Origin: a virus
Virus record (IMG/VR): IMGVR_UViG_3300001848_000569
Coordinates: 1-53,369 of that record
Direction: 5' to 3' (one strand)
DNA length: 53,369 nucleotides
The notes below the pieces were generated by a model, which saw only the letters and a list, made by a program, of their open reading frames with translations, was not told where the DNA came from and did not search any database. Positions 16,189 through 52,008 of this stretch are shown piece after piece (the stretch's first letter is position 1; every line of letters begins with the position of its first letter). The position numbers and the translations under genes were made by a program.

Positions 16189-18234
16189 CTAAAAATTTTT
16201 ATTTTTTAAACCCATTCTTACCATCCTAGCTCCTATTAAAAATTTATCTGCAAGTTTAGCAGCTGCGGACATTGGAGAGTTAACTGATTCTTCTTTGATT
16301 ACTCTCCTTTGATATAAAGCCTGCTCATATAATAAACATCCACGAAAACTAGTAATTCTATCAAAGTTATCTTCATCATTATAAGCTATAAGTTCTCTTA
16401 TAAGCCCCTTATCCTTAATACGGGTATATCCTAATATCTCTTTAGCTATAGTAGTTTTGGTATCATCAGTATATATATACCCTATTACTTCAGTAAGATA
16501 TTTAATAATAAGATTATCTCCATTTAGTATAACTTCTCTAGTTGGATGAAAACCATAACTTCTTGAAACTTTAGAGGTTGGGTTTAAACCTTTAATTTCA
16601 TCCATTTGTTCTTGAAGTATATATTCTTTATTTTTATTTCTAAAATGATTAACTATACCCACATTGGCATTTTCCACTAATAATTTAGCATTATAGTATT
16701 CACAAAGATTAATTGCTATATCATACATTTCCTCAGCAGTTGGCCTTCTACCATTATAAGTAGCCACTATTTTTCGATCTGTTTGATCTAGTGCGTTATT
16801 ATTTGTACGTTTATATATAGTCAATGAAAATATAGAGCTAGAAGTAGGGGCAGCATCTTGATCTACACTATCTACCATAGCTATATAAAGACCAGTTTGT
16901 TTTTCAGGAGAAGGTGGTTCATAAATCCATATAGATCCCTCTATTCCATCGTCAGTTTGTTCAATTGGGTATTTTTCATAAGGAGAAGATATTCCTAATA
17001 TTTTAGGTTTAACTACTCCTTTATCATTTAATAACTCTAACCCATATCCAACATTCCCTATTGAACCAACAGTTTCTAATTCAGCTAGCCATTTGGTTAA
17101 AAGTTCAACTGGAAATTTATTTACCGACTTAGATAAAAATGCTTCTTGTGGTTTAATAGGGTGCTGCGAAATATAAGTTAAATATTGTCTTACCGATTTT
17201 TTCTTTTGTTTTGCTCTTTCTCCATCTAAATATTTCAAAGAAGAATCTATATCTGAATTACCATTATCATCAATATAAGGCTTTAAACATATATACTCTG
17301 GAACAAAATAACCACACTTTTTATTTTTAGCTATTTCAACATCATCCCATATATTATCATAAGCCATAAAATCATTAGCCTCTGGCTCGTAAAATATTTT
17401 CTTTAACCCCTCGCACTTATCCAAGTCCCCAACTGAACCATACGCTATAATTAAACCAGTAGTAAAGGAACCATCCATAGTAGCTGGTTTCATAAACTCA
17501 AGTACATCTAGTAAATTAGGAAATACCCCTGCTTCTTCTATAACTGATAAATCAATAGCACCACCTACAGATGATTCTGCTCTATCTTTAAATGTAAGTT
17601 TATGAAGTTCAGATAAATAACCAGATTCCACTTTTTTACCATCTATTATTTCTTCAAAAGCCATACGAAGATATGATGCTGTATCTGGTAATCTATTTTT
17701 ATAAAAATCAGTAAATTTATTTATATGACTTAAATAGTCTTTAGTAAAAACCCATGTTTTAGTAGCATATTTTTCATAAAATGATCCTAAATAATTCATA
17801 GACTTTCTATGAAAATGAAGATTATGAATTATAGGAACTGCATCTTTTAACGAGAAACCTTTCTGACGGGCCTTTAATGCAGCTAAATGCCTACCTACTT
17901 TTTTAGCCTTATCTATTTGTAAAAACCAATCAGCATCTAAATCCCAAAAATCTGGAAATGTAAATAACTTTTTCTTTTTATTATATATTGGACAATAATT
18001 TAAATACATATAATGAAGGCCAGATATTTTCTGACCATCCACAGTTATACCATTTTTTAATCTATCTTCTTCTATATCCCAAAATTCTTTATAGGCATAA
18101 GTTCCCGAAGGGTAAGTACAATAAGTACCATCCTTTAAAAAACGCATAGCTGGCTCTCTAAACTTATCTACATCTTTCCAAAGAGAGTTACCATCTAAAC
18201 CGTTTAAAGGATAATATCTAGTTGTCCAACCCAT
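16189..18234 (-). CDS. terL: Terminase large subunit
   Basis: A 681-residue DNA-packaging motor. The ATPase part has a Walker-A-like KARQKGFSLK at residues 121-130 and Walker B plus catalytic glutamate at 227-236 (IDLSVIEEAG). The C-terminal nuclease starts with IAMVDSVDQD at 451-460, giving the first metal-binding aspartates. Length and the aromatic N-terminus (LHYMYLNYCPI) match crAss-like terminases. The gene ends with TAG, the only non-TAA stop I found in the late module. It is coupled by TAATG overlap to the Hint-domain gene upstream and is followed by portal. Confidence 0.92.
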   Translation of the reverse strand: MGWTTRYYPLNGLDGNSLWKDVDKFREPAMRFLKDGTYCTYPSGTYAYKEFWDIEEDRLKNGITVDGQKISGLHYMYLNYCPIYNKKKKLFTFPDFWDLDADWFLQIDKAKKVGRHLAALKARQKGFSLKDAVPIIHNLHFHRKSMNYLGSFYEKYATKTWVFTKDYLSHINKFTDFYKNRLPDTASYLRMAFEEIIDGKKVESGYLSELHKLTFKDRAESSVGGAIDLSVIEEAGVFPNLLDVLEFMKPATMDGSFTTGLIIAYGSVGDLDKCEGLKKIFYEPEANDFMAYDNIWDDVEIAKNKKCGYFVPEYICLKPYIDDNGNSDIDSSLKYLDGERAKQKKKSVRQYLTYISQHPIKPQEAFLSKSVNKFPVELLTKWLAELETVGSIGNVGYGLELLNDKGVVKPKILGISSPYEKYPIEQTDDGIEGSIWIYEPPSPEKQTGLYIAMVDSVDQDAAPTSSSIFSLTIYKRTNNNALDQTDRKIVATYNGRRPTAEEMYDIAINLCEYYNAKLLVENANVGIVNHFRNKNKEYILQEQMDEIKGLNPTSKVSRSYGFHPTREVILNGDNLIIKYLTEVIGYIYTDDTKTTIAKEILGYTRIKDKGLIRELIAYNDEDNFDRITSFRGCLLYEQALYQRRVIKEESVNSPMSAAAKLADKFLIGARMVRMGLKNKNF

Positions 18235-29129: not shown

Positions 29130-29502
29130 GGGCCATACAGGATTCGATAGTAATGATTAAGTAATTGGTTTATACATCGGTTTGGAATATCCCGATTAAT
29201 AAATAAGTTCTGAAAAATAGATGCTAACAATGTTAGACCTATGTTTGCTAAAAAGAAGGTAGCTACTACTTTCTATGCAAAGCGAGTATTGGCAGCTGCT
29301 TAAGTAATTAAGTAGTTCTTAGGAACAGAAAGCCAATAAATAGTTTACTAGTTCTATAAAAACTAGTTGGTGGAGTTTGCTCAATTTCAGGGCAGCCTTT
29401 TATTCTTTTGGAGAGTTAGTAAGATAAAACTCTATCCTAAGTATATAAATAAAACCAATTAATTAGCTTTGCTAGACCCCGGTTCAATTCCGGGATGGTC
29501 CA
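29130..29502 (+). ncRNA. ssrA: Phage tmRNA with unusually long 26-residue tag
   Basis: The ends form a tRNA-Ala-like acceptor: GGGCCAT at 29130 pairs with ATGGTCC at 29495, with a T arm CCCGG-TTCAATT-CCGGG before it and GGATTCGA after the 5' strand. The tag frame starts with the resume codon GCT at 29223, preceded by AATAGAT, and ends at TAA 29301-29303. The encoded tag begins ANNVRPMF, contains KKKVATTF and ends YAKRVLAAA. Usual bacterial tags are 8-15 residues, so this is long and basic, but the hydrophobic-Ala-Ala end keeps the protease signal. It would rescue stalled ribosomes or redirect products of degraded host messages. Confidence 0.85.
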
Positions 29503-29517
29503 CACAAAATTTCTAAT

Positions 29518-41031: not shown

Positions 41032-41591
41032 TGATCAAAATTAGTATTGAAAATTTAAATAAACATTTTTTAACCCCAGATGAAATATTATTTTTATATC
41101 TTCTTACTACGGAGTTTCAACTTTCTTCTTCGATTAATCTTTCTATTAGAGATAATTTTTTAATAGATAATCGCCTAATTATAAAAAGTTCTGATAATAA
41201 AATAAGTATTACTAAATATGGTTTAGAACTACTTAAAGACTTTGAAATAATTGAGGGTGAAAAGATATTAATGGCAGATGAATTAATGGAATTTTGTCAA
41301 GAATATAGAAATTTATTTCCATCTGGGGTTACAAGTGGTGGAAGATTGGTTAAAGGAGATAAGGCTGGGGTTTATCGTAAAATGAAGAAATTTATCTTAA
41401 ATCATCCCGGAGTATCTTTTGAAAGTATTTTAAATGTTACTAGATCTTATATTAGTAAATTTGAAGGTAATTACTCTTTTTTAACTTGTGCTGATTATTT
41501 AATTGAAAAAGATGGATTAAGTCAATTATCAGGATTAGTTGAGCAAGGACAAGTTAATGTTACTACTAGTATAGAAGAAAGGAGGTTATAA
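41031..41591 (+). CDS. Replication-associated protein upstream of helicase
   Basis: A 186-residue protein. Residues 10-70 form a winged-helix-like unit (LTPDEILFLYLLTTEFQL; ITKYGLELLKDFEI), and the C-terminal half (VYRKMKKFILNHPGVSFESILNVTRSYISKFEG) is helical with a compact end. It is directly coupled to the helicase gene by TAATG. Position and architecture suggest a helicase loader or accessory factor, without a recognised family. Confidence 0.55.
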   Translation: MIKISIENLNKHFLTPDEILFLYLLTTEFQLSSSINLSIRDNFLIDNRLIIKSSDNKISITKYGLELLKDFEIIEGEKILMADELMEFCQEYRNLFPSGVTSGGRLVKGDKAGVYRKMKKFILNHPGVSFESILNVTRSYISKFEGNYSFLTCADYLIEKDGLSQLSGLVEQGQVNVTTSIEERRL

Positions 41592-42697
41592 TGATATATG
41601 ATAGAGTAAAAGAAGAATTACTCATAAATAAAAAAATAAGAAAAGATGGGAGATACATTGCTATACCTTGGCCGAATATGCCTAAATTAAGTAGTGTAAT
41701 ACCCGGTATTCAAAGGAGTAGATATATAATTGTAACGGCAAATTCAAAGGTCGGTAAAACGCAGATTGGAGATTTCTTATTTTTATATGAACCACTTGAT
41801 TTTCTTTCTTCTCATCCCGATGCTAAACTTAAGATTAAAATATTCTATTTCTCTTTAGAAATAAGCAAGGAGGATAAAATTCTTCAAATGATTTCTAACA
41901 GAATATTTAAAGATTATCAGATTACTATTTCTACTGATAATCTTAGATCTTATTTTAACGGGTATATTCTTGAAGATAAATTAGTAGAAATTATATCTTC
42001 TTATGAAGAATATTTTAGATGGGTTGAAACAGTTGTGGAGTTTATAGACCAAGTAAGAAATCCTTATGGAATTTACAAACTAATAAGAGATTATGCTAAA
42101 ACGCATGGTAAGTTCTATAAAAATGATGGTACAGAGGTAATTATGAATAATGGTGAAAATCTAATGTATGATTATTATGTCCCAAATGATCCAGAAGAAC
42201 AGGTTTTGATAATAGTTGATAATTTTAATTTATTACAACCTGAAAAAGGAGAAGATCTTTGGTCTGCAATGCATAAATTTTCATCAGATTATGCTCTTAA
42301 AATAAGAGATAATTTTAAATATACCTTAATAGGTATACAGCAACAAGCTGCTGATCAGGAAAAACAACAATTTACTTTTAAAGGAAATAGTATTATTGAA
42401 AAAATAAGGCCATCAGCAGATGGATTAGGTGATTGTAAACTTACAGCTAGAGATTGTGATTTAATGATTGGTTTATTTGCTCCTTATAGATATAAAATAG
42501 TAACATATCCTATTAATGGTGGGTATGATATAAATAAATTAAAAGATAATTATCGTGAGCTTTCTATTCTTTTAAATAGAAGAGGAGGTGGTAATATCAA
42601 TTTAGATTTATATTTTAATGGTGCAGCCAATTATTTTGAAGAACTACCAGCACCTAATAGTAAGAAAATGATAGAAATTTATAACCAATTACAATAA
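41591..42697 (+). CDS. DnaB-like replicative helicase (RecA-fold ATPase)
   Basis: A 368-residue protein. Walker A is at residues 48-58 (VTANSKVGKTQ), followed by a strand with IKIFYFSLEISKEDKI, which is the DnaB-type 'SLEM' motif. Walker B is in LIIVDNFNLLQ near residue 210, and GIQQQAADQEKQQ farther on resembles motif H4. There is no N-terminal DnaB domain, so it is a short single-domain form typical of crAss-like phages. It would unwind the phage DNA at the fork, with the primase and polymerase of this module. Confidence 0.8.
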   Translation: MIYDRVKEELLINKKIRKDGRYIAIPWPNMPKLSSVIPGIQRSRYIIVTANSKVGKTQIGDFLFLYEPLDFLSSHPDAKLKIKIFYFSLEISKEDKILQMISNRIFKDYQITISTDNLRSYFNGYILEDKLVEIISSYEEYFRWVETVVEFIDQVRNPYGIYKLIRDYAKTHGKFYKNDGTEVIMNNGENLMYDYYVPNDPEEQVLIIVDNFNLLQPEKGEDLWSAMHKFSSDYALKIRDNFKYTLIGIQQQAADQEKQQFTFKGNSIIEKIRPSADGLGDCKLTARDCDLMIGLFAPYRYKIVTYPINGGYDINKLKDNYRELSILLNRRGGGNINLDLYFNGAANYFEELPAPNSKKMIEIYNQLQ

Positions 42698-42700
42698 TTA

Positions 42701-43447
42701 ATGGAAGAAACTTTTGTACTACCTACAGCTCCTATAGAAGCAAGTATAAAATCACCAAAAGTACTTATAATCTATAGCAAACCTAAGACTGGTAAAACCA
42801 CTCTTTTATCAGCTTTAAATAACTGTTTAATATTAGATACTGAACATGGTTCAGATTATGTTTCAGCTTTAAAAGTTAAGATTGAAACTGCACAAGATTT
42901 GAAAAGATGCGGAGATGCTATTTTAAAAGCTGGAAAACCTTATAAATATGTAGCAATAGATACGGTAACTGCACTTGAGGATATTGCTCTTAGTGTAGCT
43001 TTAGCAAAATATAAAGATACACCAATTGGTAAAAACTTTGGTAGTAGGCCGGGAGAAGATTCTGTGCTAAAATTACCCAATGGAGCAGGTTATTATTGGT
43101 TAAGAATAGCTATGGAATCCTTAACCAATTATATTGAGACTCTTGCTCCATATACTATTATTTGTGCTCATCTTAAAGAAAAGCTTTTAACTATTGATTC
43201 TAAAGAAGTATCAGCAGCAGATTTAGATTTAACTGGAAAAGTTAAAAATATTATTTGTGCTAATGCGGATGCTATAGGATTATTAAAACGAGAAGGAAAT
43301 AAAACGATATTAAGTTTTAAAACTAGCGATATTGTAACATGTGGAGCTAGACCCGAACACTTAAGAAACCAAGAATTTGTAATGTTACAATCAAACGATA
43401 AAAATCAAATAGAAGAAATAGGTTGGAATAAAATATATATTGATTAA
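42701..43447 (+). CDS. Sak4-like RecA-fold ATPase
   Basis: A 248-residue protein with Walker A SKPKTGKTTLL at residues 26-36, then CLILDTEHGSDYVSAL and Walker B-type KYVAIDTVTALEDI. This is the AAA_24/Sak4 single-strand annealing or recombination ATPase found next to SSB in many phages. It lies four bases after the helicase and just before the single-strand-binding candidate. It may load or act with that protein in recombination-dependent replication. Confidence 0.8.
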   Translation: MEETFVLPTAPIEASIKSPKVLIIYSKPKTGKTTLLSALNNCLILDTEHGSDYVSALKVKIETAQDLKRCGDAILKAGKPYKYVAIDTVTALEDIALSVALAKYKDTPIGKNFGSRPGEDSVLKLPNGAGYYWLRIAMESLTNYIETLAPYTIICAHLKEKLLTIDSKEVSAADLDLTGKVKNIICANADAIGLLKREGNKTILSFKTSDIVTCGARPEHLRNQEFVMLQSNDKNQIEEIGWNKIYID

Positions 43448-44260: not shown

Positions 44261-45226
44261 ATGGTCAATATAGAATTAGCAATAACAAAGGAGTTAATCC
44301 TTAAAAAATGTTCACAAGAACAGATATATAGTCATTATTTAGGTAAATATAAAATTGGATCTGCCATGAAGTGCCCTTGGAGAGAAGATAGAACTCCTAG
44401 TTTTTCACTTTTCTATAACTCAACTGGGGTACTTCTATGGATAGACCATAGTTATCATGAAATAGGAAACGTATTTCAATTAGTCCAAAGAATATTTAAT
44501 TTGAGGTTTGTGGAGACTCTAAAGAAAATATCAGTTGATTTACATTTAAATACTATTACAAATTTTAATAATAATCCACTTGTAATAAGTTATATACATA
44601 ACAATCCGGTAGAATTTTCAGATGAAGAAAGACCATTTACTAGTATTGATTTACAATATTGGGAAAACTATGGTATAAGTCAAAAAACACTATTTAAGTA
44701 TAATATATTTGCTATTAATAAGCTATTTATTAATGGTAAGTGGAAATGGTCATATAGCAATTCTTGTCCTATTTATAAGTTTTTAGATCAAGAATCTATT
44801 AAATACTATAGACCACTAGCTCCAAAACATAGTAAATGGAAAGGAAATGGTGTTAATATTATACAAGGATGGGAACAATTACCAAAGGGAAAACTAGATA
44901 TGTTAGTAATTACCAAGGCTAGAAAAGATATAATGACCCTAGATGAGTTAGGTATATTTTCCATAGCTACTATTACTGAAAGTAAAAAATTTACCACTGA
45001 ACAAATATCTAATATAAAAGATAAGGCAAACATTATTGTGAGTGTTTTTGATAATGACGTTTGTGGCTTAAAACAAAAAGTTTACCTAGAATCATTTGGT
45101 ATTAAAGGTTTTATCATAGAAGAAAAAAGTAAATTAAATAAAAGATTGGATATTTCGGATTTTAGAAAAGAATATGGTAAAGAAAAATTAATAAATAAAT
45201 TAAAAAGTTTTAAAATTTTAAAGTAA
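44261..45226 (+). CDS. DnaG-type primase
   Basis: A 321-residue protein. The N-terminal zinc-ribbon-like domain has MKCPWREDRTPSFSLF and the later His pair DHSYHEIGNVFQLVQRIF. The TOPRIM-type catalytic domain shows LVITKARKDIMTLDELG (in which Lys replaces the usual Glu-Gly) and SVFDNDVCGLKQK with the D-x-D pair, followed by DISDFRKEYG. This reduced primase form is common in Bacteroidetes phages. It ends by TAATG overlap into the ubiquitin-like modifier gene, so they share a transcript. Confidence 0.8.
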   Translation: MVNIELAITKELILKKCSQEQIYSHYLGKYKIGSAMKCPWREDRTPSFSLFYNSTGVLLWIDHSYHEIGNVFQLVQRIFNLRFVETLKKISVDLHLNTITNFNNNPLVISYIHNNPVEFSDEERPFTSIDLQYWENYGISQKTLFKYNIFAINKLFINGKWKWSYSNSCPIYKFLDQESIKYYRPLAPKHSKWKGNGVNIIQGWEQLPKGKLDMLVITKARKDIMTLDELGIFSIATITESKKFTTEQISNIKDKANIIVSVFDNDVCGLKQKVYLESFGIKGFIIEEKSKLNKRLDISDFRKEYGKEKLINKLKSFKILK

Positions 45227-45705
45227 TGAGAACAGTTAAGTATGTTAATACTTCTAATAATGCAATTAGTAAGTTTGAAAATGTTGAAAATGGATTAACT
45301 TGGGGTGAATTTAATGAACAATATCTTCATCTAAGTTCTAGTGATCTAAGCGGTAATAATTTTGCTGTTATTGAAGGTTCAATTGGTTTAGTTGGCCCAT
45401 CAACTCTTTTACCTGATGGTGATATTAGAATTGCTTCTAGTCCAAGTAAAATGAAAGCCGGTGAAGTAGATTCTAATGAAATAGTTGAGCTTAGAAAATT
45501 AAGAGATGAATTAAATAATAGAATCAATTCTATTATTTTACATCCCGAAATTTGTGAGTCACTATATGATCTAATTGAATCATTGGAAACATCAGTAGAA
45601 ATTGCAGCAGATTCAGTTGGTACTGCTACTACTACTAGTAGTAAGAAATCTTCTTCTGATGATAGAGATTTAGAAGAGGCCCGTAAGCTACTTGGGGGAA
45701 GATAA
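45226..45705 (+). CDS. Putative ubiquitin-like modifier (beta-grasp) with LLGGR C-terminus
   Basis: A 159-residue protein. Residues 1-79 have the beta-grasp order: strand TVKYVNTS, strand AISKFENVENG, helix WGEFNEQYLHL, strand NFAVIEGSIG, then TLLPDGDIRIASSPSKMKAG, where LPDGD (62-66) matches the turn in ThiS/MoaD and in bacterial ubiquitin-like proteins. A helical extension (ELRKLRDELNNRINSI) and a Ser/Thr linker lead to the end LEEARKLLGGR (155-159 LLGGR). Removing the last Arg would expose a diglycine. Genes for an E2-like, JAMM and E1-like protein follow. Modifier is inferred from fold, ends and company. A terminator follows directly. Confidence 0.62.
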   Translation: MRTVKYVNTSNNAISKFENVENGLTWGEFNEQYLHLSSSDLSGNNFAVIEGSIGLVGPSTLLPDGDIRIASSPSKMKAGEVDSNEIVELRKLRDELNNRINSIILHPEICESLYDLIESLETSVEIAADSVGTATTTSSKKSSSDDRDLEEARKLLGGR

Positions 45706-45722
45706 TATACAGATATTAATAT

Positions 45723-45751
45723 AAAGGGGAAGATTCAAATTCTTCCCCTTT
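45723..45751 (+). terminator. Strong terminator between the modifier and E2-like genes
   Basis: A perfect AAAGGGGAAGA/TCTTCCCCTTT hairpin with a seven-base loop, followed by TATTATTTT. It would stop most transcripts after the modifier and let a minority continue into the three enzyme genes. Confidence 0.8.
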
Positions 45752-45772
45752 ATTATTTTAAACTTTAAAAAT

Positions 45773-47035
45773 ATGACAACCATATTAGAACCAGATACCA
45801 TTGTTAGTAAAACAGAGGATTTAGAGTTTTTTAATGAAAAAAGTAATATTTTTAATTATTATTTAGTAAATAGTAAAAAAAAAGACCCCACTTTTACGGA
45901 TATACTTAATGTTAAGAAAGTAGAAGTTTATAAAGATTCTTCAGCAGTTTATTATTTAAAGGATTTTTTTGGTGATGGGTATAGTTTTAGTGCAAAGGAC
46001 TTAAAAAGTACTTTTTCAATTATTAATGATGAACAAGTAAAAGTAATAGTAGATAAGTCTATTGGTCTTTTTAAGTCAAAATTACAAGATATTAAGGGTA
46101 TTTTTCAAACTTTTTATTTAGCAGAAAATCTCGATATTACGCAATTGGACTATCTTTTAGCGAATATAAAAACTATTAAAACTAGAGATACTAATTTCGA
46201 TATTTATATTAAATTTCCAAGTATTTTAATAAAAAATTCTAATGGGAAATCGCATTTTATAAAAGATTTATATATCAAATTTCAATTCTCTTATGATTAT
46301 GGAAATAATGTTTTGCGTTTAGCTAATTTATATGGCTATAGACCCAATAGAACTTTAGGAGAATGGAAAGCAGAATATATACATTCTCATATACAAGGTT
46401 CTGGTACTAGTAGCACTCCATTTAATTCTGGATTTTGCTTTGGGAGTACTAAGATTGCAGTTTCTTTTTCAAAATTACGTCATTCCGAAATAAATTTTAC
46501 TACGCAAGATTTAGAAACCTTTTTAATTGAATTTATAGGTTATTTATCTTGGGAATCTTTAGAGGGCGGGCCATATCGTAGAATAGGAGATATATCTAGT
46601 GCTAATTATATCCCTCTATCTGGTTTACAAAAATATAATATTGATACAGAAGAATGTGTTAAAATTATTCAAAATATTGATATTCCTATTATAGATAGAA
46701 ATGGTATTCCAGAAGTAGATTCGCAAAAGTTAGAAAAGATTTTATTAAGTTTGTCTATTCCTAATTTATCTATTCCTTTTTTAGGATTTAACTCAGAATT
46801 AAATTTATATCTAACACCAAATACTTCTGATGAAAGAGATGAAATAAATCGGTATAAAAAAGTAGTATCCCAAAGATCTTTTAAATTTAATAATTCTACT
46901 ATAAAAGGAGATGTAATTAGTACTGATTTTGAAAATAATTCATTAATTAACAAAGTTATTAATCCTAATTATCTTAATAGTCTAACAATTGGAATAAATA
47001 AAATTTTAATAAATAATTTAAACCATTTAATTTAA
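45773..47035 (+). CDS. E2-like ubiquitin-conjugating protein candidate
   Basis: A 420-residue protein. Residues ~140-230 show an E2-like series of strands: NFDIYIKFPSILIKN, KDLYIKFQFSYD, VLRLANLYGYRPN, then the flap-like WKAEYIHSHIQG (His204, His206) and a single cysteine, Cys222, in SGFCFGSTKIA. Prokaryotic E2 domains carry an HPH-type motif followed some 15 residues later by the catalytic Cys in 'CLG/CFG'. The N-terminal 130 residues and the C-terminal 150 are unassigned. It lies between the modifier and JAMM genes. E2 is a reading of this motif and the neighbours; another family is possible. Confidence 0.55.
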   Translation: MTTILEPDTIVSKTEDLEFFNEKSNIFNYYLVNSKKKDPTFTDILNVKKVEVYKDSSAVYYLKDFFGDGYSFSAKDLKSTFSIINDEQVKVIVDKSIGLFKSKLQDIKGIFQTFYLAENLDITQLDYLLANIKTIKTRDTNFDIYIKFPSILIKNSNGKSHFIKDLYIKFQFSYDYGNNVLRLANLYGYRPNRTLGEWKAEYIHSHIQGSGTSSTPFNSGFCFGSTKIAVSFSKLRHSEINFTTQDLETFLIEFIGYLSWESLEGGPYRRIGDISSANYIPLSGLQKYNIDTEECVKIIQNIDIPIIDRNGIPEVDSQKLEKILLSLSIPNLSIPFLGFNSELNLYLTPNTSDERDEINRYKKVVSQRSFKFNNSTIKGDVISTDFENNSLINKVINPNYLNSLTIGINKILINNLNHLI

Positions 47036-47043
47036 AAAAAATT

Positions 47044-48399
47044 ATGAAACATAATAGAAAAAGAACTATTGTTAAGGGATTTACTCCCCCTTCTAATAAT
47101 ATTCAGCCTACGATTACTCCGAGATTACAAGTAATTGATCTTTATCAAAATAAACCAACTGTTATAATTTCTGAAAAACTACAACAAGAAATAGATTTAG
47201 CTCATACAAAAGTTGGTCCTATTGAATGGTGTGGAGTACTATTGTTTAAAGAGGTAAGTGGTAATATTCATGATGGCAACCTAGTAATAATGGCAGATCA
47301 TTTTCATTTAATGGATATTGGTAGTGCAGCACACACTTCTGCTTCTATTACTACTGAAACCATTAGTGAAATGATGGATAAAGGTGGTGTATTTGATATG
47401 ATAGAAGATGGGTATAAACGTGGACTTATTCACACACATCATAACATGGCTACCTTCTTTTCAGGAACAGATATGGAGGAATTACAGGATAATACTCGTC
47501 ATTATGAGTATTATCTATCTCTAATTGTTAATTTTAAGGGAGAATATACTGCTAAAATAGCAATGATTGGTAAACCTAATAAGGAGGAATCACAAGTGGA
47601 GTATACGTATCGTTTTGGTAAAGTATATACTTCTCCTACAAAACTTAATGATGTTCTATTAACCGCGGATTGTTCTATTCAATTTGAACAACCTCCTTGT
47701 AATTTAGTTTCTGAATATTTTACAAACAGATTAACTGAATTTGTAAATAGACCAAAAACCTATCCTGTTTATCAACCGTTTAAAAGTAATACAACTATTC
47801 AAACTAATTTTCCAGTTACTACGATTAGACATCTTTATATGGATAAACAAGGGTGTAAGGAACTAATTAATCTTGAAAAGAGTAATTGTGTTGAAATAAG
47901 ACTAAGTTTAGTTAATACTCCTAATAATCGTTTTAATTTAAATATTAAAGATTATCTAACATTTGTATTTGCTGATTCGGCTGATGATTTAAGTAAAGAA
48001 TTATCTTATATTCTAGCTAACTTTAATAGAAAAAACCTAGTTAAAAACAAAAATGGTGTTACTATTATCAAGAACTTATTCATGGATTATTTCAAGAATC
48101 TTGATGATTTTATTGATCAATGTTTAACTACTGCCGGTATTCAACCTTCTATCATTGATAATCTATTAGGGAATCAACAATTATATAGCGAAGTTGTTTT
48201 AAAGGTAATAATGGCCTCTATTAAAATGTTGAGTAAATACGATTATTTAGAGTTAGTTAAAGATTATATTAATGAATTAAAAGACTCTAATATTGTAGAT
48301 TTTGATATTTCTGAACAGACTGTTAAAAACTATGGAGTAGAAGAAACTCAATCATTAATTATTCCTTCTATATCTGATTTTGCTGATTTTCATGAATAA
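47044..48399 (+). CDS. JAMM/MPN+ isopeptidase-like protein
   Basis: A 451-residue protein with a full zinc-protease signature: Glu61 in IEWCGVLLFK, and His130, His132, Ser140 and Asp143 in LIHTHHNMATFFSGTD, which is exactly H-x-H-x7-S-x2-D. JAMM enzymes process or remove ubiquitin-like modifiers at the Gly-end. The remaining 300 residues are alpha/beta and end in a helical domain (VLKVIMASIKMLSKYDYLEL). In this operon it would trim the C-terminal Arg of the modifier or reverse conjugation. It lies eight bases after the E2-like gene and ten before the E1-like gene. Confidence 0.85.
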   Translation: MKHNRKRTIVKGFTPPSNNIQPTITPRLQVIDLYQNKPTVIISEKLQQEIDLAHTKVGPIEWCGVLLFKEVSGNIHDGNLVIMADHFHLMDIGSAAHTSASITTETISEMMDKGGVFDMIEDGYKRGLIHTHHNMATFFSGTDMEELQDNTRHYEYYLSLIVNFKGEYTAKIAMIGKPNKEESQVEYTYRFGKVYTSPTKLNDVLLTADCSIQFEQPPCNLVSEYFTNRLTEFVNRPKTYPVYQPFKSNTTIQTNFPVTTIRHLYMDKQGCKELINLEKSNCVEIRLSLVNTPNNRFNLNIKDYLTFVFADSADDLSKELSYILANFNRKNLVKNKNGVTIIKNLFMDYFKNLDDFIDQCLTTAGIQPSIIDNLLGNQQLYSEVVLKVIMASIKMLSKYDYLELVKDYINELKDSNIVDFDISEQTVKNYGVEETQSLIIPSISDFADFHE

Positions 48400-48408
48400 T
48401 TTTTTAAA

Positions 48409-49137
48409 ATGGAAGATATACTTGAATTAGAAAATCCTGATTTGCTTGTTTCAAATAGAATGACAAGGTTTAAAGATTCAGGTTGGTATCAACGAGACAA
48501 TATGCCCGCAGTTTTAGTTTTAGGCTGCGGGTCTATTGGTTCTTTTCTATCTTTGTGCTTGTCAAGAACTGAATGTCCGTTATATCTATATGATATGGAT
48601 ACCTTTGATGAAGTTAACTTTTCTGGTCAACTTTGTAAAAAAGGAGATGGTGGTAAATTAAAAACTACAGCTTTAATAGAAACTCTTGCGCTATTAAATG
48701 ATGGAGTTAATTATGTTCAAGATTCTGGTCTTGAATATAATAATTCTTGCCCTACTAATAATATTGTTTTTTCATGTTTTGATAATATGAAAGCTAGAAT
48801 TTTAGCTTTTAATAAATGGAAAGAATATGAAAATAGAGAAATTTTTATTGATGGTAGAATAAATGCAGAAAGCTTTCAAGTATTTTTTGTACAAAAGGGG
48901 AATGAAGAGGAATATATGAAAAATCTCTTTGATGACTCACAGGTTGCTGATTTACCATGCACTTATAAATCTACTACTCATTGCTCAATGCAAATTGCTT
49001 CTATGATGATGGCAGGGTTTGCTAACTATTTATTTAATAAAAGAGTTGGAGATACTATTAGAGAAATTCCATTTAAATATGAACTAATAATGCCAATTTT
49101 TAAAAATGTAATTGAAAATGTCGGTAACACTAAATAA
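48409..49137 (+). CDS. ThiF/E1-like ubiquitin-activating protein
   Basis: A 242-residue protein with a Rossmann fold of the E1/ThiF/MoeB superfamily. VLVLGCGSIGSFLSLCL has Gly39-x-Gly41-x-x-Gly44. LYLYDMDTFDEVNFSGQL is the ATP- and Mg-binding segment, and GGKLKTTAL supplies the conserved Lys. FSCFDNMKAR has the Asp125-Asn pair. Cys184 (DLPCTY) or Cys192 is a candidate for the thioester cysteine. The usual Arg of the 'N-x-x-R-Q' box is Gly here. It would adenylate the modifier's C-terminal glycine. It is followed by an overlapping unknown gene. Confidence 0.85.
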   Translation: MEDILELENPDLLVSNRMTRFKDSGWYQRDNMPAVLVLGCGSIGSFLSLCLSRTECPLYLYDMDTFDEVNFSGQLCKKGDGGKLKTTALIETLALLNDGVNYVQDSGLEYNNSCPTNNIVFSCFDNMKARILAFNKWKEYENREIFIDGRINAESFQVFFVQKGNEEEYMKNLFDDSQVADLPCTYKSTTHCSMQIASMMMAGFANYLFNKRVGDTIREIPFKYELIMPIFKNVIENVGNTK

Positions 49138-50224
49138 TCTTTTTAACAGTAAACTTACTACAGTTCCTTTATTTAGTTTATCTTCTATAAAAGATGGATA
49201 TATTCCTGTATGCAGTATAGTTAATAATTACATTTCTTCTTTAAGGGAAGAATCGGAATTTATTAATTATAAAGGAAGTGAAAAGGTTCTTATATCCTTA
49301 ATGTTAAAAAAAGATATATTAACAAAAGATGTAGTTAATTCTATGACTCTTGGGTTACTAGAGGATAACTGTTCTAATGTAAGTATATATATGCAAAACG
49401 ATTCTTTAAACAAAGAGGAATTAGTACAGTCAATTTTATTTAAAGACGATGTTTCAACTTGTAGTTCTTTTAAACAAACCCGTATTGTTAATTCTTCATA
49501 TATAAGATCTTTCGGTTCTTTATTTACTAAAGATTATAAACCTATTGTACTAGTTTTACTAAAACAAGAGTATCTTGAAAAGTTTTGTTTAAAATTAATT
49601 TTAGGTAAAAAATTAATTCCTGAAAGTAATGATGAAGTAATTATTTATATAAATAATTCTTTGTTTGAATCGGAATTAAGTGATTCTTTACAAGCTCAAT
49701 TTAAATTAGTAATTAAAGAAAATAAACTACCAACTATTATAGATAATGGTGAAATGTTTTCAGATTATTTCTTTCCTTTTAAATATCCAGACTTTAGCGA
49801 TTTAAATGCTAAATCGAAATATTTTAAAGAAATGTCTACAAAATTTCGGACAATTGTAACAAATCGCTATGAAAAACTAAAGAAGGTTAATAAATTTAGA
49901 CCGCTCACTACGGAGATTTTAAAAAAAATAATTAGTAAAGGTGATGTATCAAAACTATTATTAAAAATAAATCCTGATAGCGTTGTATTGGATCCTAAAG
50001 GTAGAATGGTATTCAAAAAATATTCCGATGAAAGGTGTGGTTCGTTTGAAACGCCAATTAATACTATAATATCAGGAATAAATTTATCAAAAATAAATGA
50101 GTATACTTTTTCCATTTATTATGTTAATGAAGAGAGCGATGTATATTCTATTAGTAATAATGGAAAAGAATACAGTTGGAGATATTCTTCTGGCAATTAT
50201 TGGCTTTATAGACTCGAACAATGA
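49118..50224 (+). CDS. Unknown 368-aa protein, fifth gene of the modifier cluster
   Basis: ATG at 49118 is used; an alternative TTG lies six bases upstream. The start overlaps the E1-like gene by 20 bases and the stop TGA overlaps the next ATG, so it is translated as part of this series. The protein is alpha/beta throughout (KVLISLMLKKDILTKDVVNSM; KPIVLVLLKQEYLEKFCLK; EVIIYINNSLFESEL), with a C-terminal beta domain containing YSISNNGKEYSWRY. No family is recognised. Given its place, it could be a target adaptor, an E3-like factor or an independent replication protein. Confidence 0.6.
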   Translation: MSVTLNNLFNSKLTTVPLFSLSSIKDGYIPVCSIVNNYISSLREESEFINYKGSEKVLISLMLKKDILTKDVVNSMTLGLLEDNCSNVSIYMQNDSLNKEELVQSILFKDDVSTCSSFKQTRIVNSSYIRSFGSLFTKDYKPIVLVLLKQEYLEKFCLKLILGKKLIPESNDEVIIYINNSLFESELSDSLQAQFKLVIKENKLPTIIDNGEMFSDYFFPFKYPDFSDLNAKSKYFKEMSTKFRTIVTNRYEKLKKVNKFRPLTTEILKKIISKGDVSKLLLKINPDSVVLDPKGRMVFKKYSDERCGSFETPINTIISGINLSKINEYTFSIYYVNEESDVYSISNNGKEYSWRYSSGNYWLYRLEQ

Positions 50225-50685: not shown

Positions 50686-51188
50686 TCAAAGAAGTTAATA
50701 TGTGTAATATATCCTTATGGGGAATATATCCACTATTGGAATTAGATAAGAAATATGATCATTTCTTATATGATACTTACATTAAATGTGAGCAATATAA
50801 TGAATTACCAGAGTGTCTATTTGTACTATTTAGTAGTACTGGAGGTGCTGATGAAATATTGGATAACTTAATAGCTACGCCAAATTATTTTTCATCTATT
50901 GATATTAGTGAGAAATATAGGTTAGTTATATTTACATTTCCTGATAAATATACTAATGATATCCATTTACTAATAGATGGTAAATATTCAAAATTATCTA
51001 TTCCTGCAAAAAACATTATTAAGAATAGAATGAAATATTCTGATATACATGGTATTCTTGATAAGAGTTTAGAAATGAAAAAATGGATAGAAAATAAAAT
51101 AGGAATGGATATTGGTGATAATGAAGTATGGGATAAAATGGATTTAAATAAAGAGACTCTAAATATTAATAATGATAGATTACAATAG
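50682..51188 (+). CDS. Hypothetical protein of the replication module, 168 aa
   Basis: An alpha/beta protein (SLWGIYPLLELDKKYDHFLYD; CLFVLFSSTGGADEILDNLI; YRLVIFTFPDKYTNDIHLLI). A second possible start is the ATG at 50700. The end overlaps the exonuclease gene by 17 bases. No motif is recognised. Confidence 0.6.
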   Translation: MIKEVNMCNISLWGIYPLLELDKKYDHFLYDTYIKCEQYNELPECLFVLFSSTGGADEILDNLIATPNYFSSIDISEKYRLVIFTFPDKYTNDIHLLIDGKYSKLSIPAKNIIKNRMKYSDIHGILDKSLEMKKWIENKIGMDIGDNEVWDKMDLNKETLNINNDRLQ

Positions 51189-52008
51189 TTTGATCAATAG
51201 TAAGAGTGATAATATAGAAAAAAATAACCTATTAATTATTGACGGGGACTTTATTTTATATATTGTTACTAATAAAAATAAGGTGTTAGATCAATTTGGT
51301 AAACCTGAATTAGATCCAAATGGTAATTATATATATTATGATAAAAATTTAGAGGAGGTTAAGGGAGCTATTGACTCTTATTTAAATACTTTATTTACTG
51401 GTTTAAATGCTTCAGAATATATAGGATTTATTGGTGGAAATATTAGAAATTACTTTAGAAAGAAATACTATCCTAACTATAAAGAGAATAGAAAAAAGAT
51501 TGAGAGACCACAGTTTATTTCTGAAGCTAAACAGTATTTAATTGATCAATATCATTTCATACCTGTTGATATTATTGAAACGGATGATGCAGTTAATATT
51601 ACTAGATTACACTATCCTAATAGTATACCAGTAGTAGTAGATAAAGATTTAAAATCTTTAGAAGGAAAATGGTATGATGCTTATCATAATGTATTCGTAA
51701 ATACTACACTTGAAGAACAAGATAAGTTTATTTGGTCTCAAATGATAACCGGGGATACTTCAGATGGAGTATCAGGCATACCAAAAAGGGGGATAAAATA
51801 CTTTGAGAAAATAGTACAAGAAAATGAGATGCGTGCTGAAAACTCTTTACCTGTTTTAATATATGAAGAATATATTAGTCACTATGGCTTAGAAAGGGGA
51901 ATAGAGGAGTTCTATGCAAATTGGAAAGCACTTCATATATTAAAATCTATTGAAGAATTACCCCAAGATTGTACTTTTACTATACCTGAACCAATAAAAA
52001 TAACATAA
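51172..52008 (+). CDS. 5'-3' exonuclease (FEN/RNase H-like)
   Basis: A 278-residue protein with the FEN-family metal ligands: LLIIDGDFILY near residue 20, RKKYYPNYKENRKK, VDIIETDDAVNIT, VVVDKDLKSLEG and ITGDTSDGVSGIP, which is the helix-hairpin-helix region that binds DNA. The enzyme removes RNA primers or 5' flaps during lagging-strand synthesis, as T4 RNase H and the PolA 5' domain do. It precedes the family B polymerase, which has no 5'-3' exonuclease of its own. Confidence 0.85.
   Translation: MIDYNSLINSKSDNIEKNNLLIIDGDFILYIVTNKNKVLDQFGKPELDPNGNYIYYDKNLEEVKGAIDSYLNTLFTGLNASEYIGFIGGNIRNYFRKKYYPNYKENRKKIERPQFISEAKQYLIDQYHFIPVDIIETDDAVNITRLHYPNSIPVVVDKDLKSLEGKWYDAYHNVFVNTTLEEQDKFIWSQMITGDTSDGVSGIPKRGIKYFEKIVQENEMRAENSLPVLIYEEYISHYGLERGIEEFYANWKALHILKSIEELPQDCTFTIPEPIKIT

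Follow-up and report, generated by a model that had tools for sequence, protein, structure and literature searches.

Here we describe a set of four adjacent genes that probably forms a phage-owned, self-contained ubiquitin-like conjugation system, a reading to which we give a probability of roughly 0.75. The genes lie on the + strand at 45226-49137 of the IMG/VR virus record IMGVR_UViG_3300001848_000569, studied over its full 53,369 nucleotides (the window). Their order is modifier precursor, E2-like cysteine protein, JAMM/JAB metalloprotease and ThiF/E1-type activating enzyme, four consecutive genes just as the initial annotation had read them, and a conserved fifth gene, X, follows downstream. 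The basis is the gene set, the predicted fold of the modifier, the active-site residues, a glycine (Gly79) with an extension behind it, the linkage of the genes and a hairpin between the first two of them; the enzymatic steps, the targets and the assignment of gene 2 as an E2 are all inferred. The features are, in order:

45226..45705, + strand: gene 1, pro-modifier (precursor of the ubiquitin-like protein, Ubl), 159 amino acids; beta-grasp in the AlphaFold2 model and by its Foldseek neighbours
45226..45462, + strand: predicted mature modifier (residues 1-79, C-terminus SPSKMKAG); Gly79 codon at 45460-45462
45463..45702, + strand: putative removable tail, 80 amino acids; helical hairpin and C-terminal helix ending LLGGR in the AlphaFold2 model
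45721..45753, + strand: terminator-like hairpin with a 13 base pair stem, a 7 nucleotide loop and a T-rich tail; -19.2 kcal/mol, z -4.7
45773..47035, + strand: gene 2, E2-like protein, 420 amino acids; His206 codon at 46388-46390, Cys222 codon at 46436-46438
47044..48399, + strand: gene 3, JAMM/JAB protease, 451 amino acids; E61, H130, H132, S140, D143
48409..49137, + strand: gene 4, E1-like ThiF-family enzyme, 242 amino acids; GxGSIG ATP loop, D62, N70, K85, D125 and candidate catalytic Cys184 (48958-48960)
49112..50224, + strand: gene X, fast-evolving, overlapping the end of the E1 gene

The AlphaFold2 model of gene 1 shows a beta-grasp domain and then a helical tail, with a mean pLDDT of 84.8; the alignments behind the structure predictions consist of the window and loci from IMG/VR or genome contigs only. 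When the model is compared with the PDB by Foldseek, SUMO, ubiquitin, NEDD8, the UBL of Rad23 and MoaD-type proteins are among the top matches (probability about 1, E-values of 1.4e-3 at best, TM by target about 0.5-0.69). A beta-grasp-like N-terminus had been proposed at the outset, with a structure comparison as its check, and the predicted fold and its neighbours agree with it. The LPDGD motif pointed out there is also real, as L62-P63 form a near-invariant loop.

The end of the modifier is a different matter. The C-terminal LLGGR had been taken for it, but these residues are unconserved and terminate the removable tail, which rules them out as the acceptor end. The sole invariant residue of gene 1 is instead Gly79 (SPSKMKAG, before E), at the end of the beta-grasp domain, across 70 aligned relatives that are 13-31% identical to the window protein. 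It is kept in 78/78 distinct sequences and in 82/82 new ones found from other anchors, 160/160 in total. Sixteen of the 78 end 1-5 residues past the glycine (VKSGF, VKSGK, MAAGY, KSGTSI), several of the new ones again end one residue past it, and the others of the 78 carry tails of 21-213 residues; none of the 78 ends exactly at Gly79. In all, the tail varies from 1 to more than 200 amino acids among relatives. An invariant glycine with an extension behind it, together with short versions stopping 1-5 residues on, is the pattern of a ubiquitin-type precursor, that is, a pro-modifier. Judged by this conservation, the predicted acceptor residue is Gly79 and the precursor needs trimming, most likely by the JAMM enzyme.

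The tails themselves are diverse, and Pfam scans mostly leave them without a match. The two exceptions are a SAP-like domain (7e-5, just under the cut-off) and, in cr126_1 (L010, 2629-3267), the C-terminal domain of ribosomal protein L7/L12 (PF00542, 2.6e-12), a combination reminiscent of the ubiquitin-ribosomal protein fusions of eukaryotes. In cr106_1 (L006, 2770-3973) an HNH endonuclease gene interrupts the pro-modifier just past the processing point (KIKSGKF), and modifier and tail are separate open reading frames (ORFs). Further, many tails in the Steigviridae loci L003-L013 have a common C-terminal peptide resembling SxxEIDDMF, which is possibly a short binding motif.

Gene 4 belongs to the ThiF/E1 family (Pfam PF00899, 3.9e-11). 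A profile of 12 phage E1 sequences finds UBA5 as the best match in the PDB (3.6e-13), and also MccB, ThiF, MoeB, eukaryotic E1s and Cap2, while the thiamine ThiF equivalog is not reached (32 bits against a cut-off of 159). The Rossmann ATP site and the DMDTFDEVNF segment singled out in the initial annotation hold up, the latter as the E1 signature DxDxVxxxN. Bar one D62E and one gap, 81 relatives keep G39, G41, D62, D64, N70, K85, D125 and Cys184; the last of these, the candidate catalytic Cys, is present in 81/81. In gene 3, the H-x-H-x7-S-x2-D motif plus Glu61 is likewise there as described: the JAMM set E61/H130/H132/S140/D143 is kept in all aligned relatives, bar gaps and one H130. The match to Prok-JAB (PF14464) has an E-value of 2.1e-4 and, at 21.6 bits, is under the curated cut-off of 25; a profile search of the PDB gives weak matches to CSN5 and JAMM1 (9e-4 to 0.13).

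Gene 2 is the weakest link of the system. Its HSH (residues 204-206) and Cys222 were noticed early, and H206, C222, G224, E261, S262, G265 and P267 are identical in 80/80 relatives and near-identical in 83 new members. Cys222 is found in 80/80 and 83/83 of these (163/163), His206 in 80/80 and 82/83. The predicted topology, with a helix, three long strands, the HxH, the Cys and two helices, is compatible with UBC. The conserved Cys and His, the operon position and this modelled topology together point to an E2. Of the E2 claim as first made, the Cys/His part stands, while the fold part does not, as Foldseek, Pfam and profile comparison all came back without confirmation. A second JAMM protein, suggested by the HSH, was rejected: no S-x2-D comes after it, and the match to the profile of PRTRC-A (the JAB protein of the plasmid cassettes compared below) spans only the letters HSH.

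The four genes stay together. With the E1 as anchor, all four are found in 86/94 loci, the window included, and the remaining loci are mostly truncated at contig ends or lack a recognisable modifier. Since this set is conditioned on the E1, the search was repeated from E2 and JAB, which gave 158 loci, with some contigs counted twice and some shared with the E1 set; all of the 128 with enough flank have the four genes. The same genes in the same order are thus obtained from any of the three anchors. Among nine named phage genomes the pattern is all-or-none: crAss001 and FpV4 have all four, and all four are absent from three Suoliviridae, one Crevaviridae, one Intestiviridae and the Steigviridae phi14:2 and cr108_1. 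A search of other crAss-like genomes had been suggested in the initial annotation, and it shows that the cassette is not confined to one phage, as crAss001 and FpV4 have it in the same order and so do far more than 100 further phage contigs. The constant order, the all-or-none presence, the conserved catalytic residues and the predicted beta-grasp fold fit the original view of these genes as one system.

Annotated phages contribute 74 records, mostly from Bacteroides Steigviridae and Flavobacterium psychrophilum phages, and the labels checked in them are thiamine biosynthesis, metalloprotease or hypothetical protein. A crAss-type terminase is also present in 26/43 cassette-bearing IMG/VR records. 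In the record of locus L057 (G023), TAG interrupts the terminase frame 17 times, so this phage probably reads through the codon. Peptide patterns run against 84,980 genomes of bacteria and archaea returned two loci, on metagenome-assembled contigs of 3.7 kb and 12.3 kb, the longer one with an entire phage-type cassette; because the scan relies on short peptide patterns, distant cellular relatives could escape it.

Of the junctions within the cassette, only the one from modifier to E2 is regularly open, with a median of 64.5 nucleotides; E2 and JAB overlap in 77/86 loci, and JAB and E1 in 50/86. A terminator-like hairpin is present in 62/72 distinct modifier-E2 gaps, where shuffled sequences would give 13.6, and in 69/74 new gaps, where they would give 12.5, or 131/146 distinct gaps overall; the counts come from related phages and are not independent. 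The stem sequences are quite different among gaps. When only gaps of 40-90 nucleotides are considered, the hairpin is found in 45/47 modifier-E2 gaps versus 29/80 other gaps in the same loci, a contrast whose p-value should not be read literally since the phages are related. The hairpin is a predicted attenuator: with read-through, modifier would be plentiful and the enzymes scarce. At the other end of the cassette, an ORF is found downstream of E1 in 93 loci, and the X of the window aligns with a 48-member family (hhalign 1.1e-6, 83%); we would guess at an adaptor or E3-like role.

A make-up of Ubl, E2, JAB and E1 is known from type 6d of Iyer et al. 2006 (PMC1779556), which is the PRTRC plasmid cassette. 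The order in the plasmid cassettes is ParB-E-C-F-B-A-ThiF, with C the Ubl, B the E2, A the JAB and ThiF the E1; these loci came from a sequence query, and their records are themselves annotated as PRTRC. The relative order C-B-A-ThiF equals that of the phage. Further, both modifiers have a single-Gly end (PRTRC mostly xKG, phage K-x-K-S-G) with an optional tail, both have C-x-G at the E2 Cys, with the best local E2 profile match pairing both predicted catalytic cysteines, and both cassettes are carried on a replicating mobile element. The E1 profiles align (2.5e-15), and the JAB profiles do so weakly (2.6e-4; HSH...FS.TD). However, the modifier has no detectable homology to PRTRC C (hhalign E 0.56), the E2 comparison gives an hhalign E of 0.035, and the phage E1 scores 25.8 bits against the PRTRC ThiF family cut-off of 144.75. 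The conserved His precedes the Cys in the phage E2-like protein but follows it in the PRTRC E2, and the phage cassette adjoins primase, X, a RusA-like protein and an exonuclease instead of ParB, E and F. Order and E1 agree but modifier and E2 homology fail, so that by the tests done the phage cassette is not a PRTRC member; it would work like PRTRC and may come from a common stock by descent. On a Xanthomonas plasmid (L101, 1164-9807) the PRTRC cassette is flanked by ssb and by the gene for a DNA polymerase III beta subunit, and so is in a replication setting too.

By the tests done, membership in CBASS or Bil, which had been named alongside PRTRC, fails as well. CBASS Cap2/Cap3 and 6A-MBL are similar in their E1-type activation and JAB reversal, and the PADLOC E1-E2 models match the phage E1. 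However, a single polypeptide combines E2 and E1 there, while the phage has them as separate ORFs, no CD-NTase (nucleotidyltransferase) or effector is found among the scanned phage neighbours, and no PADLOC match is common to the gene 2 family. UFM1 has a single C-terminal Gly, a short precursor extension and a small E1, and is processed by cysteine proteases. The phage modifier also has a single Gly with an extension, its E1 is small, and UBA5 is the best solved relative of that E1; in contrast, no sequence relation was seen for modifier or E2, and UFM1 is not trimmed by a JAMM enzyme. The Bil operon has separate genes for Ubl, E2, deubiquitinase (DUB) and E1, and so does the phage cassette. 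Unlike the ISG15-like Bil, the phage system is virus-borne, and none of 73 gene 2 family members matches PF14459 (Prok-E2_C) or PF14455, the domains named for ISG15-like systems (PMC10952713). A phage-borne Ubl with a JAB peptidase is known in lambda-type tail protein I (PMC1779556), but it is without E1 or E2 and is found in tail assembly genes, not replication genes. In the initial annotation no description was known for this order of phages, and no published account of the cassette was found; the search was thin on subscription journals and preprints, so one may exist.

In the mechanism that we propose, gene 1 would be made as a pro-modifier, with its 79-residue beta-grasp domain and tail, and the JAMM protease would cut past Gly79 to give mature modifier and tail. 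The E1-like enzyme would adenylate Gly79 and hold the modifier as a thioester, probably on Cys184, and would hand it to Cys222 of the E2-like protein. The modifier would then be attached to targets, most likely phage replication or recombination proteins of the same operon, with X possibly guiding, and the JAMM protease could take it off again. Owing to the hairpin after its gene, the modifier would be produced in excess over the enzymes.

The E1 family, the JAMM motif, the modifier fold, Gly79, Cys222, the linkage, the all-or-none presence, the PRTRC order, the putative attenuator and the replication neighbours argue for this proposal. Several points weigh against it. Foldseek with the full gene 2 model gives nothing usable (model residues 5-73 are of low confidence), library searches with gene 2 give no Pfam match and uncharacterised phage families only, and just C-x-G is common to gene 2 and PRTRC-B. 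The modifier has a single terminal Gly instead of GG, the classical NLxRQ Arg of E1 is replaced (by Gly in the window, NFSGQ; NxSGQ in the family), and the hairpin counts come from related phages.

The lack of an E2 fold match would also suit conjugation without an E2, with the E1 itself passing the modifier on to its targets, as has been proposed for the SAMPs of archaea, and with gene 2 serving as an adaptor or a different thiol enzyme. The invariant His206, Cys222 and Glu261 could equally make a Cys-His-acid site. We nevertheless regard this as unlikely: its predicted elements, a helix, strands, HxH, Cys and helices, follow one another much as in UBC, and the operon position and the pairing of catalytic cysteines with PRTRC-B speak for an E2. 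Since the phage E1 scores with ThiF adenylyltransferases too, a sulfur-carrier pathway has to be weighed as well. Here a carrier like ThiS, MoaD or QbsE would be matured by JAMM and activated by E1, and gene 2 would be the acceptor enzyme through which its sulfur enters a small molecule or a nucleotide. JAMM-trimmed sulfur carriers do exist (QbsD/QbsE), and a phage could thiolate nucleotides. However, the C-terminus of the modifier is mostly [SA]G across relatives and not GG, the scanned neighbours include no sulfurtransferase, desulfurase or thiamine/Moco enzyme, gene 2 has a strict Cys and His and stands in the E2 position of PRTRC, and the tails are long and variable, all of which makes this pathway very improbable.

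It is conceivable, though we lean against it, that the same machinery acts on host proteins, in counter-defence or host take-over, which differs from our proposal in the attachment step only. Ubl systems of bacteria, CBASS Cap2/Cap3 and Bil among them, take part in defence against phages, so this chemistry belongs to that arms race, and some Crassvirales are entirely without the cassette. On the other side, the cassette adjoins the primase amid replication genes in annotated records and not in a variable accessory region, and the domains that can be recognised in the tails resemble SAP and L7/L12.

The replication module forms the right end of the window on the + strand. Reading of the sequence confirms the earlier placement of the cassette between primase and DNA polymerase; the neighbours are:

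41591-42697, + strand: DnaB-like helicase
42701-43447, + strand: Sak4-like protein
44261-45226, + strand: primase, whose stop codon overlaps the modifier start codon
50221-50685, + strand: RusA-like protein
51172-52008, + strand: exonuclease
after about 52217, + strand: family-B-like DNA polymerase, start only, read from the sequence

The terminase, portal and major head proteins of the window match families from crAss-like phages. The terminase (16189-18234) is nearest to Suoliviridae (36%), and only 27% to Steigviridae; as the tested Suoliviridae are without the cassette, this suggests mosaicism or lineage-wise loss. Between 22000 and 35500, ORFs are sparse and short, along with tRNAs and a tmRNA gene at 29130-29505 (Rfam RF00023, 63.5 bits; predicted tag ANNVRPMFAKKKVATTFYAKRVLAAA), which has several tRNA genes nearby. 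Readthrough of TAG or TGA (recoding) gives no clear ORF gain in this sparse region (22-35 kb).

Complete ubiquitin-like cascades are known in bacteria, where they occur as cassettes on plasmids or as systems of defence. The crAss-like phages of gut and water, an abundant viral lineage, would own such a cascade and keep it amid their replication genes. A little short of even, in our estimate, is the chance that a virus-owned pathway in more than 100 crAss-like contigs reversibly tags its own replication machinery and forms a lineage separate from the tested bacterial families. As cultured pairs exist, crAss001 on Bacteroides intestinalis and FpV4 on Flavobacterium psychrophilum, the pathway is directly testable. 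If true, four proteins of much-studied phages that now go by "hypothetical" or a generic label would gain functions, and the history of ubiquitin-like signalling would have one more divergent branch.

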